Both the position numbers and the translations under genes were made by a program. A DNA stretch of 64,000 nucleotides from Candidatus Lachnoclostridium stercoravium (GTDB taxonomy: Bacteria > Bacillota > Clostridia > Lachnospirales > Lachnospiraceae): NCBI GenBank assembly GCA_019118365.1, contig DWZA01000091.1, positions 1-64,000 of the forward strand. The letters run 5' to 3'. Positions 9,405-59,578 of the stretch are shown piece after piece. The notes below the pieces were generated by a model. It was not told where the DNA came from. It saw nothing but the letters and a program-made list of their open reading frames with translations, and searched no databases. The number at the start of each line of letters is the position of its first letter. The first letter of the stretch is position 1.

Positions 9405-9500
9405 AGGGTACCTGTCCTTTCCTTAGTTATCGAAAAATGCCTAAATTGAATAGATTATACACGATTCGACGAGGTTTTTCAACTGAAATTTTGAAAATAC

Positions 9501-9641
9501 TTCAGCCGTGCACCAGGATATATGATACAGAGCGTTACAAGCTTGCTTGTAAAAGCGATTTGACATATATCCTGGCATAAGGATGACATCCAGGGCTTCT
9601 TGTCAGCACATTCTGTGCTGGCAAGAAGATACACGGCTGAA
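9501..9641 (-). repeat. Dispersed ~141-bp structured repeat 'R1', copy 1 (inverted relative to copies 2 and 3)
   Basis: ttcagccgtg...cacggctgaa terminal inverted repeats; near-identical to 12431..12570 and 59726..59866. Confidence 0.95.
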
Positions 9642-9655
9642 CTTATCAATGCCAT

Positions 9656-11364: not shown

Positions 11365-11488
11365 TTTAAGGGATCCTGGATTCAGGGTCCCTTTTCCTTT
11401 GCTTTCGAAAGTGTTTCCGGATTTTCTTCACCTTACCTTTCTTCCTGTCTTATACTATAGTAATCAGCGATTTTATCGAGGTATTTCC

Positions 11489-12397
11489 ATGAATCTTCCA
11501 TATGTATCTGCTTCCCAGGCTTCCGGGTCCGATCCTTCCTCCTCTCTTGGAAGCCTGGTAATGGACGTGGTATCTTCTCAGAATAATTTTCCCATTTCCA
11601 ATGCCACTGTAGAAATAGCTTCTGAAACCTCTCCTTCTGATATTATTGAAAAGCTGACCACTGACAGCTCCGGCCAGACTGCCGATATCTCCCTTCCTGC
11701 TCCTCTGGAAAAATACAGTCTGGCGCCTTCGGATGAAAGGCCGTATTCCGAGTATCACCTGCATGTTACCGCCCCTGGATTTAAGCCAGTTGACATCAGC
11801 GGCACGGAGATCCTTGCCGGAGCCACTGCGATCCAGAATGTCCGGCTGGAACCTGTGGACGATCCGACTCCTATAAACAACGATATTGTTATCCCTGAGC
11901 ACACGCTTTACGGAAACTATCCGCCAAAGATCGCAGAGCCGGAAGTCAAACCGGTCACCGACACCGGCGAGATCGTCCTTTCCCGCGTGGTAGTCCCCCA
12001 GACGGTCATCGTCCACGACGGCGTCCCTACCAATGCATCGGCTCCGGATTATTATGTGCCTTACCGGGATTACATCAAAAACGTGGCGTCCAGCGAGATC
12101 TACGCCACCTGGCCAAGAGCCACCATCACCGCCAACGTGCTGGCTATCATGTCTTTTACGTTAAACCGCGTCTATACGGAGTGGTACCGGGGCCAGGGCT
12201 ACAACTTCACCATCACGTCATCCACGGCTTTTGACCACAAATGGATCTACGGACGGAATATTTATGAAAGTATTTCTGTAGTTGTAGACGAGATCTTTGA
12301 CAGCTACCTTTCCCGGCCGGATGTACGGCAGCCGATCCTGACCCAGTACTGCGACGGCCGCATGGTACAGTGCCCGAACTGGATGACCAGATCGTAA
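11489..12397 (+). CDS. SleC-like spore cortex-lytic protein, N-terminal segment (interrupted at 12388; last codons TRS* come from the inserted element)
   Basis: DYIKNVASSEIYATWPRATITANVLAIMSFTLNRVYTEWYRGQGYNFTITSSTAFDH and YCDGRMVQCPNWMT recognised as SleC-family motifs; gaggt SD; continues in frame at 14783. Confidence 0.85.
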   Translation: MNLPYVSASQASGSDPSSSLGSLVMDVVSSQNNFPISNATVEIASETSPSDIIEKLTTDSSGQTADISLPAPLEKYSLAPSDERPYSEYHLHVTAPGFKPVDISGTEILAGATAIQNVRLEPVDDPTPINNDIVIPEHTLYGNYPPKIAEPEVKPVTDTGEIVLSRVVVPQTVIVHDGVPTNASAPDYYVPYRDYIKNVASSEIYATWPRATITANVLAIMSFTLNRVYTEWYRGQGYNFTITSSTAFDHKWIYGRNIYESISVVVDEIFDSYLSRPDVRQPILTQYCDGRMVQCPNWMTRS

Positions 12398-12430
12398 GTG
12401 GGTACGGCTGATACAACAAAAAAGTATCAG

Positions 12431-12570
12431 TTCAGCCGTGTATCTTCTTGCCAGCACATTTTGTGCTGACAAGAAGCCCTGGATGTCATCCCTATGCCAG
12501 GATATATGTCAAATCGCTTTTACAAGCAAGCTTGTAACGCTCTTTATCATATATCCTGGCGCACGGCTGA
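12431..12570 (+). repeat. Structured repeat 'R1', copy 2 (inside element 1)
   Basis: ttcagccgtgtatcttcttgccagcaca...catatatcctggcgcacggctga. Confidence 0.95.
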
Positions 12571-12597
12571 CTGTTACCATAAAAAATTTTAAGAATA

Positions 12598-12626
12598 TTG
12601 AAATCAAATTCCGCATATGCTATAAT
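12598..12626 (+). promoter_or_regulatory. Promoter of candidate antitoxin/antisense RNA
   Basis: TTGAAA-N17-TATAAT. Confidence 0.75.
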
Positions 12627-12632
12627 GCCAGT

Positions 12633-12703
12633 AGGCAAAGAGAAGTGATGACATTTCCATGTCAGACGACGAAAACCCCGGAGCGGCAACTCCGGGGTTT
12701 TCT
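12633..12703 (+). ncRNA. Candidate type I antitoxin-like small RNA ending in a bidirectional terminator
   Basis: Starts just downstream of TTGAAA-N17-TATAAT; ends at aaccccggagcggcaactccggggttttct. Confidence 0.55.
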
Positions 12704-12747
12704 ATTCCATTTTGGTATGGCGGCTTAAACCATAGGCTGATTACCGA

Positions 12748-12834
12748 CTATTCGCCGCCGTCCAACCATTTGATGATGTAATGGCAAATTACACCAGCCG
12801 CGACAGCGACAATAAGAGAAGTGATTATTTCCAA
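12748..12834 (-). CDS. 28-aa hydrophobic type I toxin-like peptide (TTG start): MEIITSLIVAVAAGVICHYIIKWLDGGE
   Basis: Single TM segment with charged C terminus; gggaggtg SD; its own promoter TTGCGC-N17-TATAAT; not in the supplied ORF list because of its size and TTG start. Confidence 0.65.
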   Translation of the reverse strand: MEIITSLIVAVAAGVICHYIIKWLDGGE

Positions 12835-12881
12835 GCCAGACACCTCCCTTCTGTACCAGTATAGGAGGCGGTAACGCTGAC

Positions 12882-12910
12882 ATTATAACATCTGGCAAAT
12901 TATGGCGCAA
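12882..12910 (-). promoter_or_regulatory. Promoter of the small hydrophobic peptide gene
   Basis: Minus strand TTGCGC-N17-TATAAT. Confidence 0.7.
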
Positions 12911-12966
12911 CCAGAAACAGGCCCCTGTCTGATCGCTCCATGTTCGCCTGTCCTTCCGATCTGCTT

Positions 12967-13125
12967 TTAAGAGGACCGGACAACTTCTGCATTTGCGATC
13001 GTTGCAAGCGGCCTGCAGGTCAAATGCTCTGCGATCTGTTCCTGCTGCACCTTTGTAAGTTCATTGAAAGCCTCTCTTCGATCTCCGACCCGTATCCAAT
13101 TGGTAAACGTTATCTCTTTTTTCAT
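12967..13125 (-). CDS. 52-aa conserved-looking small protein divergent from the recombinase
   Basis: MKKEITFTNWIRVGDRREAFNELTKVQQEQIAEHLTCRPLATIANAEVVRSS; gaggtg upstream of ATG. Confidence 0.5.
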   Translation of the reverse strand: MKKEITFTNWIRVGDRREAFNELTKVQQEQIAEHLTCRPLATIANAEVVRSS

Positions 13126-13248
13126 ACCGACACCTCACTCTGATAGATTCTATGCCGCGCCGTTTGTACCATTTTCCATAAATTTCCTCACAGGCCCGGA
13201 AGGCGTATTTTTCGTATTCTGCGATCATACATTAGGGCAGGTGATAAA

Positions 13249-14751
13249 ATGAATGACCAGTTAATATCTGCCGCCCTTTACATTCGGGTAAGCACAGAAA
13301 AGCAGGAAGAACTCTCTCCCGATTCCCAGAAACGCCTGCTGCTGGAATACGCAAAGGGACATAGTATGACTGTATCTCAGGAACATATCTACATAGAAAA
13401 CGGCATATCCGGACGGAAAGCCGACAAACGGCCGAAGTTTCAGGCGATGATCGCCGCAGCCAAATCGGAGGAACATCCTTTTGACGTGATCCTTGTGTGG
13501 AAATTTTCCAGATTCGCCAGGAACCAGGAAGAGAGTATCGTATACAAGTCCATGCTGCGGAACAAGTGCCGCGTAGATGTAGTTAGCATTTCAGAACCGC
13601 TGATCGACGGCCCCTTTGGCGGACTGATCGAACGCATCATCGAATGGATGGATGAGTTTTATTCTATCCGCCTGTCCGGGGACGTGACCCGCGGCATGAC
13701 GGAAAACGCGCTTCGCGGCGCGTATCAGTGCCGCCCGCCTCTTGGCTACCGGATCCCTTATCATAAAGCGCCTCCGGAGATCATCCCTGAAGAAGCCGAG
13801 ATCGTCCGGATGATCTTCGACAAATATGTTAATGACCGAATGAGCATCTTTGCCCTTACCAAATACTTAAACAGCCTCGGCCTTAAAACGAACCGGGGAA
13901 ATCCATTTGAGAAGCGCGCCCTGGAATACATCCTGCAAAATCCCGGATATGCCGGGGATATCCGCTGGAACCGTACAGTCCATGGGACCAAAGAAGTACG
14001 GGATCCTTCTCAGTGGATCATCCGTCCCGGCCATCATCCTGCGATCATCAGTAAAGAACTGTTCCTTGCCGCCCAGAAGCGTTTTCACTCTGAACACCAT
14101 CCAAAGAATGCCAAACCGGCTGAAGCCGCAAAGCACTGGCTTTCCGGGCTTTTAAAATGCCCCTCCTGCGGCCGCTCTCTGTCTTCCTGCGTTATGCATC
14201 GAAAGACTGCTCCTGATACCTTTTCTTTCCAGTGCTGCGGCTATCGAAAAGGCAAATGCAGCCACAACTGTTATGTAAGGGAAGAAGAGATCGCCCCGGC
14301 AGTGTTAAAAGCTCTGGAAGACGCGGTCCGGCTCTGCAATGTAAATTATGTGGTACGGAAATGTCCTGACGGGAAGTATGAGAATGCAGAGCTGGCAACA
14401 CTGAAAAAGAATCTGGAACGGATCCGCCAGCGGGAAGCCCGCATGCGGGAAGCTTATCTGGAAGGGATCGACACGAAAGAAGAATACCGGAGAAATAAAG
14501 AGCTCCTGCAAAAGGAACGTGCCGGATTGGAAGATCAGATCGTCCGCCTGGATCAGGCTGCCTCAGATAAAGGCTCCGGCGGCGCCCGGATGATCATCCC
14601 GATCAGCAGCATTCTCGACATTCTGAAGTCTGACCAGTTCACCATGCAGGAGAAGAATACAGCCCTGAAAAGTATTGTTGAACGGATCGTTTTTGATAAG
14701 GGATCTCTGCACATCGATGTAGATTATTATCTGCCCGAATCCCTGCTGTAA
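13249..14751 (+). CDS. Large serine recombinase (resolvase + recombinase + zinc-ribbon domains)
   Basis: ALYIRVSTEKQEELSPDSQ, VWKFSRFARNQEES, GYRIPYHKAP, KCPSCGRSLSS; stop 22 bp before the right junction. Confidence 0.95.
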   Translation: MNDQLISAALYIRVSTEKQEELSPDSQKRLLLEYAKGHSMTVSQEHIYIENGISGRKADKRPKFQAMIAAAKSEEHPFDVILVWKFSRFARNQEESIVYKSMLRNKCRVDVVSISEPLIDGPFGGLIERIIEWMDEFYSIRLSGDVTRGMTENALRGAYQCRPPLGYRIPYHKAPPEIIPEEAEIVRMIFDKYVNDRMSIFALTKYLNSLGLKTNRGNPFEKRALEYILQNPGYAGDIRWNRTVHGTKEVRDPSQWIIRPGHHPAIISKELFLAAQKRFHSEHHPKNAKPAEAAKHWLSGLLKCPSCGRSLSSCVMHRKTAPDTFSFQCCGYRKGKCSHNCYVREEEIAPAVLKALEDAVRLCNVNYVVRKCPDGKYENAELATLKKNLERIRQREARMREAYLEGIDTKEEYRRNKELLQKERAGLEDQIVRLDQAASDKGSGGARMIIPISSILDILKSDQFTMQEKNTALKSIVERIVFDKGSLHIDVDYYLPESLL

Positions 14752-14782
14752 TTTTTTATACGCACCTGCAGTCTGGATGACC

Positions 14783-15163
14783 CAATGGGGCTCCTGCGCC
14801 CTTGGGGAAGAGGGCTACAGCCCCATCGAGATCCTACGCTATTTTTACGGGGACAGCATTTATGTAAATACTGCGGAAGAGATCTCCGGGATCCCCATCT
14901 CCTGGCCCGGCTATGACCTGACCGTCGGCTCTACCGGAGACAAAGTCCGCCACGTTCAGGAACAGTTAGACGCCATTGCCACGATCTATTCCGCCATTCC
15001 AAAGATCACTCCCGACGGGATCTACGGCCAGGCTACCAGAGCTGCTGTAGAAGAATTTCAGTCTATTTTCGGGCTCCCCCAGACCGGGGTGATCGATTTT
15101 GCCACCTGGAATAAGATCTCCCACATTTATGTAGGGATCACCGGGATCGCGGAACTGAACTGA
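14783..15163 (+). CDS. SleC-like spore cortex-lytic protein, C-terminal segment including peptidoglycan-binding domain
   Basis: QWGSCALGEEGYSPIEILRYFYGDSIYVNTAEEISGIPISWPGYDLTVGSTGDKVRHVQEQL...PDGIYGQATRAAVEEFQSIFGLPQTGVIDFATWNKIS. Confidence 0.88.
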   Translation, partial: QWGSCALGEEGYSPIEILRYFYGDSIYVNTAEEISGIPISWPGYDLTVGSTGDKVRHVQEQLDAIATIYSAIPKITPDGIYGQATRAAVEEFQSIFGLPQTGVIDFATWNKISHIYVGITGIAELN

Positions 15164-55266: not shown

Positions 55267-56898
55267 CTAAGGAAGCGGCGTTTCCTTCAGATATGGCCTG
55301 TATGGATCGGTGAAAGAAAAACAGATCGTCACCGCCCCGTCCTGATGGATGTAAATAGCCTCCACAAGAGCGGCAAGCAGCTCCCGATCCAGGTGTTCTC
55401 TCTCCTTTTCTTTAGAAAATACTGCCGGATACTGCTCGTCCGCGCCTGTTCCTGGGGCGGCAATTTCCTCTCTCAGGCTATCTATGGATTTCTGCAGCTG
55501 CGTACTCCGCGCCTTAAACCCTGCTTTCATCCTCTGGTATTCCTCTTCTGTGATCTCTCCCGCGCTCCAGTCTATATAAAGCTGATCTGACGCGCACACC
55601 AGCTTCTCCAGCTCCTTTTTTCTTGTCTCTATAAGGTTTCTGATCCGTTCCTGCCATGGAAAGGCCGAAGGATACGCTTCCGTTTTCCCTGCGATCTTTT
55701 CCATATCCGCTGCAGCCGCGATCTGTTTTCGGATCGTAATAAGCGCTGCCTTTTCCAGCACGTCCTCCCGTATGGTGTGTTTTGTACAGGCGGTTTTTGA
55801 CTGGCGGGAATAGGTGGAGCAGTTATAGTAAACGATATTTCTTGCCGTCTTGCGGGTCATTGTTTTTTTACAGTCGGCGCAGCGCAGAAAACCGGAAAAA
55901 AGATGGGGCGTTTTCCTGCCGGGAGGCACCCGTACGTTTCTCTGCTGCAGCGTCCTGGCTTTTTCAAAAGTTTCTTTGTCAATAACCGCTTCGTGGGTAT
56001 TTTCCACGAAATACCAGTCCCTTTCATCCACTGCCACTCTGCGGTGCACTTTATAACTGATCACCTTCTGTCTGCCCTGCACCATATTTCCAATGTACAT
56101 CTCGTTGGACAGGATCGCCCCTACGGTTTTTCCGCTCCACAGACTGTTGTCCCCGGAAACCTGCGGATTATAGTATTTCATACCTTTCTGTCTTTTATAA
56201 GCGGCAGGATTCGGGATCCCCAGCCCATTGAGACGTTTCGCGATCCCTCCTTTGCTCATCCTTTCATCCGCGAACCAGCGAAAGATTTCCCGGACAACTT
56301 CCGCGGCTTCTTCATCCACCAGCAGATGATTTTTGTCGTCCGGATCTTTTTTCAGCCCGTAAGGCGGAAAAGCTCCGATAAATTCTCCTTTTCTCCGTTT
56401 TGTATCAAACGTGCGCCTAACGTCGACGCTTGTTTTATAGGCGTACTGCTGGTTCAAAAATCCGGTTATGCCCACCTCCAGACTGTGCACGGCCTCCGGG
56501 TTTAAAAACGTATCGATCTTCGGTTCGTAAAGGGAAATAAAACGGGCGCCGTAAAGGGGGATAAACTCTTCAAGAAATTTTCCCTGATCTGCGCTGTTGC
56601 GGAACGCGCGGGAAAGATTTTTGGTAATGATACAGTTGATCCGCCCGCTTTTTACATCCTCTGTTAAACGCTGAAATTCCGGGCGCACATCGCCGGAGGT
56701 CCCGCTCCGCCCATCGTCGGTATATTCGTCCACAATGTGGTAATCGCCGTTGAAAAATCCTGGGATCTGCTCGTCAAGGATCTTCCGCTGGTTCGTAATA
56801 CTTTCGCTTTCACTGTTTCCATCGTCTCTGGAAAGGCGGATATATTTTCCCACCTTCCAGAAGATCGCTTTTTCACCGTTCTTTCTGCTCCTCCCCAT
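55267..56898 (-). CDS. Large serine recombinase
   Basis: GKYIRLSRDDGNSESESITNQRKILDE, YTDDGRSGTSGDVRPEFQRL, IITKNLSRAFRNS, GFLRCADCKKTMTRK. Confidence 0.95.
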   Translation of the reverse strand: MGRSRKNGEKAIFWKVGKYIRLSRDDGNSESESITNQRKILDEQIPGFFNGDYHIVDEYTDDGRSGTSGDVRPEFQRLTEDVKSGRINCIITKNLSRAFRNSADQGKFLEEFIPLYGARFISLYEPKIDTFLNPEAVHSLEVGITGFLNQQYAYKTSVDVRRTFDTKRRKGEFIGAFPPYGLKKDPDDKNHLLVDEEAAEVVREIFRWFADERMSKGGIAKRLNGLGIPNPAAYKRQKGMKYYNPQVSGDNSLWSGKTVGAILSNEMYIGNMVQGRQKVISYKVHRRVAVDERDWYFVENTHEAVIDKETFEKARTLQQRNVRVPPGRKTPHLFSGFLRCADCKKTMTRKTARNIVYYNCSTYSRQSKTACTKHTIREDVLEKAALITIRKQIAAAADMEKIAGKTEAYPSAFPWQERIRNLIETRKKELEKLVCASDQLYIDWSAGEITEEEYQRMKAGFKARSTQLQKSIDSLREEIAAPGTGADEQYPAVFSKEKEREHLDRELLAALVEAIYIHQDGAVTICFSFTDPYRPYLKETPLP

Positions 56899-58648: not shown

Positions 58649-59092
58649 ATGACAATTAATCAGATTTCTGTATTTCTGGAAAACAAACCGGGCCAGCTGG
58701 CGGAATTTACCCGTCTTCTGGAAGAAAACCGGATCGATATGCGCGCTCTTTCCATTGCTGAAACACAGGATTTCGGTATCCTGCGCCTGATCGTTGACGA
58801 TCCTTATAAGACCGTCAATGTGGCGAAAGACGCCGGCTATGTATGCGCTGTCACTCCGGTACTGGCGGTAGAGATCTCCGACAAGCCCGGCAGCCTGGTA
58901 AAGATGCTTACAGCTTTAGGCGAAAGCGGCATCAATGTAGAATATACATATGCTTTCATCACCAGGAAAAAAGACGTGGCATACATGGTATTCCGTGTAA
59001 ATGATCCGGAAAAAGCTTCCGGTGTTCTTGTACGCAACAAGATCCGCCCGCTGGCTCAGGACGATCTCAGCGTTCTGTTTGGCGGAAATTAA
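58649..59092 (+). CDS. ACT-domain protein (tandem ACT)
   Basis: [75 protein letters not shown]. Confidence 0.92.
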
Positions 59093-59122
59093 GTCTTTCC
59101 TGCGGCTGTGCGCATCCTGGAA

Positions 59123-59578
59123 TGCCCCGGTCGCTCCGGTAGGCCCTGTGGGGCCGGTGGCTCCTGTTGTTCCCGCTGGGCCGGTTGCGCCAGTAGCTCC
59201 AGTGGCTCCTGCTGCGCCGGCTGGACCCGTTGCTCCAGTGGCTCCCGCCGGGCCGGTCGCTCCGGTCGGGCCGGTTACTCCGGTTGCTCCAGTCGGGCCG
59301 GTCGGACCTACATATCCCTGCGGTCCCATTGTTCCGGTCGGACCGGTGATCCCGGCGGCTCCTGTGGCCCCGGTCGCTCCGGTCGGGCCGGCTGGACCCA
59401 TTGGGCCTGGATAACCTCTTGGGCCGGTCGGGCCTGTTGGACCCATTGGGCAGGGGCAGGGCCGCGGACATGGCGCCGGACGGCAGCAGCAGCCTCTTCT
59501 GTTCTCTTCTTCTATGATCAAATCTTCTGATCGTCCATTATTTCTATTGCAGTATCCGTTAGGATAATTCTGAAACAT
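59123..59578 (-). CDS. Collagen-like (BclA-type) exosporium protein, N-terminal segment
   Basis: [14 protein letters not shown]...[41 protein letters not shown]...; aggag SD; ORF runs into element sequence ([14 protein letters not shown]). Confidence 0.9.

Follow-up and report, generated by a model that had tools for sequence, protein, structure and literature searches.

We analyzed a 64,000-nucleotide stretch of Candidatus Lachnoclostridium stercoravium (contig DWZA01000091.1 of assembly GCA_019118365.1, positions 1 to 64,000; referred to here as the window), in which sleC, the gene for a spore cortex-lytic enzyme, is divided by a 2,394-bp element carrying a large serine recombinase. The feature is likely a prophage-derived sleC-intervening element that has been reduced to a small cassette and that would be excised in the mother cell, as is the skin element of sigK. 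Mother-cell excision is the best reading because sleC of Clostridioides difficile belongs to the sigma-K regulon and is thus expressed in the mother cell; in that species, the gene is also essential for germination (PMC3789822). The split gene comprises the following features (positions in the window).

11425 to 11460, + strand: candidate sporulation promoter of sleC, with a TATACTATA box at 11451 to 11459 (intact and split relatives have similar boxes at the corresponding place)
11489 to 12388, + strand: 5' part of sleC, 900 nt, residues 1 to 300 (open reading frame [ORF] list, SleC homology)
12379 to 12388, + strand: left core repeat CTGGATGACC, crossover TG at 12384-12385 (repeat search, dyad analysis, phage attachment site [attP] of free viral contigs)
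12389 to 14782, no strand: sleC-intervening element, 2,394 bp (repeats at the ends, equivalent elements in relatives)
14773 to 14782, + strand: right core repeat CTGGATGACC, crossover TG at 14778-14779 (repeat search, dyad analysis)
14783 to 15163, + strand: 3' part of sleC, 381 nt, residues 301 to 426 and stop (SleC homology)

A preliminary description of the window had proposed that the two parts rejoin at a repeat to form a single frame, and its coordinates held. The parts at 11489-12388 and 14783-15163 join into 1,281 nt encoding 426 aa with no internal stop, and the only two copies of CTGGATGACC in the window are those at 12379 and 14773. Removing the element exactly between these 10-bp direct repeats restores the open sleC frame (codons TGG ATG ACC CAA), in agreement with uninterrupted orthologues. 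With the element in place, the 5' frame reads on into it and stops at 12397. The cut falls between WMT and QWGS, within the conserved WMTQWG motif of the SpoIID-like catalytic region, and the 5' product therefore lacks the end of this region and the peptidoglycan-binding domain, both of which are encoded by the 3' part. Residues 21 to 426 of the joined protein aligned with the pre-pro-form of SleC (PDB 9h68_A; E = 2.6e-137), and the SpoIID-like region aligned end to end with SleC. This full-length homology to a solved structure bears out the SleC identity suggested earlier. Regarding family models, PG_binding_1 matched the peptidoglycan-binding end (E = 9.7e-16 and 7.8e-15), and SpoIID matched at the expected place, below the family cut-off (E = 0.0088). 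The conserved box upstream of the gene, which we take to resemble the sigma-K consensus, fits a mother-cell promoter and is a candidate for one.

Rejoining the element ends yields an imperfect dyad centered on the TG of GGATGACC, with matches at 10/16 or 13/19 positions; the 13/19 level was reached by just 0.03% of the TG sites in the window. The attP-like inverted repeat noted in the preliminary description thus stands, whereas its count of 11/16 became 10/16 on recounting. Immediately left of the TG, the split genes shown have A on their 5' side but any of the four bases on their 3' side, and the crossover is accordingly placed at this base or directly to its right.

The same cut is present in many relatives. 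Among 98 related genomes, approximately 48 had an intact sleC orthologue and 12 had the gene cut at this place (hand count); the uninterrupted alleles for which a search had been proposed occur within the genus (genomes G001, G007, and G008). From the flanks, we identified 25 sampled genomes in which sleC is split and a recombinase lies close to a junction. When 52 recombinases were placed in a tree, 21 of the 25 grouped with just one outsider in a supported clade, and the remaining four fell in a second group. We also scanned GTDB with the recombinase family; the 80 closest recombinase relatives corresponded to 80 loci (Lachnospiraceae), and at 49 of these the flank contains the halves of a sleC divided at this point. 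Because the interruption affects the same codon of sleC in so many other genomes, and a homologous recombinase adjoins the junction, the site was not hit by chance, and the insertion is site specific, as initially supposed. Element sizes range from 2.07-kb cassettes to prophages of approximately 50 kb (2,074 to 14,577 bp for the 25 elements that were complete on one fetched locus). The sleC halves are separated by ~31 kb in [Ruminococcus] torques ATCC 27756, ~50 kb in Blautia parvula NBRC 113351 (complete genome), and ~24 kb in Anaerocolumna aminovalerica DSM 1283. Clostridium sp. chh4-2 is a further cultured carrier. Cargo-free cassettes retain an intact recombinase.

Viral sequences document the phage side of this family. 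Many IMG/VR proviruses (15 to 45 kb) end at this integrase. In six viral contigs, which stand for two distinct phages, what follows the integrase is an unbroken attP (GGTTGACC) and not sleC; this attP sits in a dyad with 19 of 22 positions matching. The integrase of one viral contig is 90% identical to an integrase sitting in sleC (locus L169), and the DNA homology between that locus and the viral contig ends at the core. The intact attP in free viral contigs indicates that this integrase family excises in nature. Integrase matches among named phages were distant (38% at best).

To characterize the state of the divided gene, we compared its halves among relatives. All 52 distinct 3' halves were full length and free of stops, so that the decayed, non-rejoinable gene considered in the preliminary description was not seen. 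Only one of the 52 5' halves contained a stop (L177); other incomplete 5' halves reflected contig edges, a slightly short alignment, a second insertion, or L051, which is not an element case. Synonymous divergence (dS; calculated by NG86) was similar for the recombinase and sleC, i.e., 0.93 versus 0.94 and 1.00 for G004/G006, 1.05 versus 0.94 and 1.01 for G262/L166, and 1.57 versus 1.76 for the window and G003; identities at fourfold sites likewise agreed. Such matching values are as predicted for one old inherited insertion. The 3' half is separated by the element from the promoter and start codon of the gene; over this divergence, its ratio of nonsynonymous to synonymous divergence (dN/dS) was 0.02 to 0.04 in close pairs and 0.05 in the window pair, comparable with that of intact genes of the genus (0.03 to 0.12). 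Purifying selection acts on both halves. The distances of the recombinases and of SleC were correlated, with Mantel r values of 0.56 and 0.52 (0/2,000 permutations). On the basis of the intact halves, the matching dS, and the strong purifying selection on the 3' half, the split sleC seems still to be used as a whole gene. A plain pseudogene was rejected in view of the intact 3' halves and the purifying selection.

We infer that the window element is excised, that this occurs during sporulation, and that it is restricted to the mother cell. In growing cells, the element would be in place and no full-length SleC would be made. In the sporulating mother cell, the recombinase would join the element ends at the central TG and release a circle, probably assisted by a 52-aa protein encoded in the element, and the 426-aa frame would be restored. 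The element would be kept in the germ line because the mother cell dies. Excision could instead be nondevelopmental, occurring at a low rate in growing cells and producing a mixed population with some germination-competent spores (i.e., bet-hedging or active lysogeny). The yin element in yabG was reported as excised at all growth stages (PMC10747680), and the large carriers, apparently full prophages, may excise on induction. We nonetheless regard this explanation as unlikely, given that C. difficile sleC is a late mother-cell gene (PMC3789822), that known elements of this kind are induced in sporulation (PMC5595907), and that frequent excision would purge the stable, small, phage-gene-free cassettes from the germ line.

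It is slightly more doubtful that sleC simply provides a hot spot of bacterial attachment sites (attB), where phages or their remnants insert, the gene is inactive, and the halves are intact only through recency. The IMG/VR proviruses ending at this integrase, the full-size elements occupying sleC in R. torques and B. parvula, and the permissive site in many intact relatives speak for such a hot spot. However, matching dS over a divergence of about 1 and a 3'-half dN/dS of 0.02 to 0.04 mean that the insertions have long persisted under selection, at least in several lineages; moreover, decay was found in 0/52 distinct 3' halves, and cargo-free cassettes keep the recombinase intact. Finally, both parts might be expressed separately and complement each other, which would make excision unnecessary. 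Both halves are open, and an ATG (14777) precedes the 3' part in the window, but the cut lies inside the SpoIID-like catalytic region, no conserved ribosome site was apparent at the 3' junctions, and 12 of 46 distinct 3' halves have CTG or CTT at the start position. With no start codon conserved there, the 3' half is unlikely to be translated separately; we rejected separate expression of the halves on this ground and consider a split protein very improbable.

Several observations weigh against developmental excision of an inherited element. We infer excision of the window element, and an excised junction was not observed. Synonymous divergences near or above 1 are close to saturation, which leaves room for independent insertions of related elements, and decayed halves under the search cut-off would escape detection. 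The flanks of 31 of the 80 GTDB loci contained no sleC half, perhaps reflecting other sites or more distant halves, and several small elements have no recognizable copy of the 52-aa protein (absent or unrecognized). YabG processes pro-SleC in C. difficile; its gene was not found in this genome (assembly 94% complete), and we dropped YabG as support. In favor of the proposed reading, a second, intact sleC, which according to the preliminary description could have made the split copy dispensable, was not found in the same assembly.

The element itself contains three features of note.

12748 to 12834, - strand: 28-codon ORF encoding a hydrophobic peptide (MEIITSLIVAVAAGVICHYIIKWLDGGE) that resembles a holin or a type I toxin (comparable small ORFs in L139 and L212)
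12967 to 13125, - strand: ORF of 52 aa, oriented divergently to the recombinase; candidate recombination directionality factor (homologues in elements of relatives and in phages)
13249 to 14751, + strand: large serine recombinase, 500 aa (Resolvase, Recombinase, and Zn_ribbon_recom above cut-off; PHROG integrase; no internal stop)

By itself, the element is not a temperate prophage: it holds space for the recombinase and small ORFs only, and phage structural and replication genes were not found in it. In relatives, proviruses make use of this integrase family and this site. The recombinase ORF ends 21 bp from the right repeat, and the protein also had a weak, below-cut-off match to XisF. Of the 25 complete elements, 15, small cassettes among them, encode a homologue of the 52-aa protein, in 14 cases divergently to the recombinase; homologues are also encoded by related phages. 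In G003, the nearest relative, 5.4 kb separates the homologue from the recombinase, and the window element therefore looks like a shrunken version that keeps both genes. Pfam and PHROGs yielded no function for the 52-aa protein, and its predicted model is a strand pair plus a helix (moderate confidence; pLDDT 76). Its retention with the recombinase and its size, similar to that of the 53-aa directionality factor CD1234, suggest that it is a directionality factor. No Pfam family matched the 28-codon ORF above cut-off. Beside this ORF is a strong hairpin (12671 to 12702), and a subthreshold match to the Rfam small RNA SpF66 spans 12661 to 12875; the ORF and hairpin are a possible retention module. 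A sporulation-type box (CATACATTA) near 13227, just upstream of the recombinase, was not used as evidence, as it is not conserved in the nearest relatives. The element also contains an imperfect palindrome (12434 to 12568) with a subthreshold Clostridiales-1 RNA match, which seems to recur at about 9479 to 9655 (similar ORF translations). Elsewhere in the window, another large serine recombinase with three Pfam domains above cut-off is encoded at 55267 to 56898 (- strand).

Several small sleC elements of relatives contain a tRNA gene (L033, 1876 to 1948; L034, 3105 to 3177; L035, 2909 to 2981; and L090, L111, L152, and L166). In G004, G005, and G006, no close match to tRNA-Val(GAC) other than the element tRNA was found genome-wide, and in G001, G003, and G007, tRNA-Val(GAC) is located a few kilobases from sleC. 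The tRNA-Val(GAC) gene might help to retain the element; a general anchoring role for element-borne tRNAs was ruled out, as tRNA-Glu(CTC) has a second copy in others.

A second site in sleC is also targeted. Hominisplanchenecus murintestinalis and Lacrimispora saccharolytica An817 have insertions at both sites, with sleC in three stop-free pieces (approximately residues 30 to 240, 230 to 301, and 297 to 426). The second cut lies near residue 232 and is associated in An817 with a different serine recombinase, while in G040 and G050 a related recombinase is present at the residue-232 cut only. The loci below, like the whole genomes, show this second site in use by a different serine recombinase family.

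L151, 7513 to 7716: second-site locus near residue 232
L159, 3219 to 5097: second-site locus near residue 232
L048 and L050: second-site loci near residue 232

Repeated independent targeting of sleC is expected if the terminal cell type removes the elements. The genome under study also has a split sigK, cut at KCVEN/EILM, with its parts on two contigs (G000:C58:2618-2974 [L132] and G000:C76:6836-7240 [L133]). When joined, the product scores above the cut-off of the SigK model (299.1 versus 298.65), which neither half reaches by itself. Upstream of the 3' part, its contig also encodes a serine recombinase, an ABC transporter, and a two-component system. As judged from these sequences, the sigK insertion is a skin-type element. 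Should sleC depend on sigma-K in this organism as well, SleC could be made only after two excisions. Among other sporulation genes, spoIVA is present in this genome, well above cut-off. A collagen-like protein with G-x-T repeats (58916 to 59578, - strand), of a kind seen in exosporium glycoproteins, was noted by eye in the window and fits a spore former. More broadly, we lean toward the view that sleC is a family-wide target of developmental rearrangement in Lachnospiraceae, involving several serine-recombinase lineages, two sites, and some host-inherited cassettes of ~2 kb, with germination dependent on programmed excision.

The intervened sporulation genes given in a previous report are sigK, spsM, spoVFB, gerE, and yabG (PMC10747680). 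The preliminary description knew of no intervening element in a sleC-type gene, and our literature search, which covered few subscription papers, likewise found no earlier report; the main text of a survey of large serine recombinases mentions no sleC element. In the present case, it is the germination enzyme itself that is targeted, with a pattern extending across many gut genera, and the element has shrunk to what may be near the smallest working excision cassette. If our reading is correct, spore germination of many gut commensals hinges on a recombinase, which bears on the transmission and cultivation of gut bacteria, and the element provides a compact model of how a prophage turns into a developmental switch of its host.

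The window element has several features of a sporulation gene-intervening element, i.e., location in a sporulation or spore gene, a site-specific recombinase, and direct repeats with restoration of the frame. It resembles skin in sigK of Bacillus subtilis and C. difficile, in which a serine recombinase element splits a mother-cell sporulation gene with short end repeats and in-frame restoration; in C. difficile, skin excision requires the small directionality factor CD1234 (53 aa) (PMC5025042, PMC10747680). Unlike skin, the sleC element targets a germination enzyme, is only 2.4 kb long, recurs across many genera, and is proposed to excise on comparative grounds. SP-beta in spsM, vfbin in spoVFB, and yin in yabG are similarly prophage or prophage-like insertions in late sporulation genes, and gene reconstitution has been shown for SP-beta (PMC4191935) and yin (PMC10747680). 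They differ in target gene; moreover, yin is reported in one strain only, whereas the sleC elements are Lachnospiraceae-wide and include cargo-free forms. The non-phage element gin in gerE of Bacillus cereus ATCC 10987 undergoes sporulation-specific excision by a serine recombinase with extra factors (GirC and GirX) (PMC5595907). At 28.6 kb and with three recombinases, gin contrasts with the window element (2.4 kb and one recombinase). In heterocyst-forming cyanobacteria, the nif, fdxN, and hup elements interrupt genes needed only in a terminal cell type and are excised there, and some heterocyst genes carry several elements. The three-piece sleC of two isolates can be likened to the latter, and the weak, below-cut-off match of the recombinase to XisF is a further point of resemblance, although the cyanobacterial elements differ from the sleC elements in organisms, genes, and developmental program.

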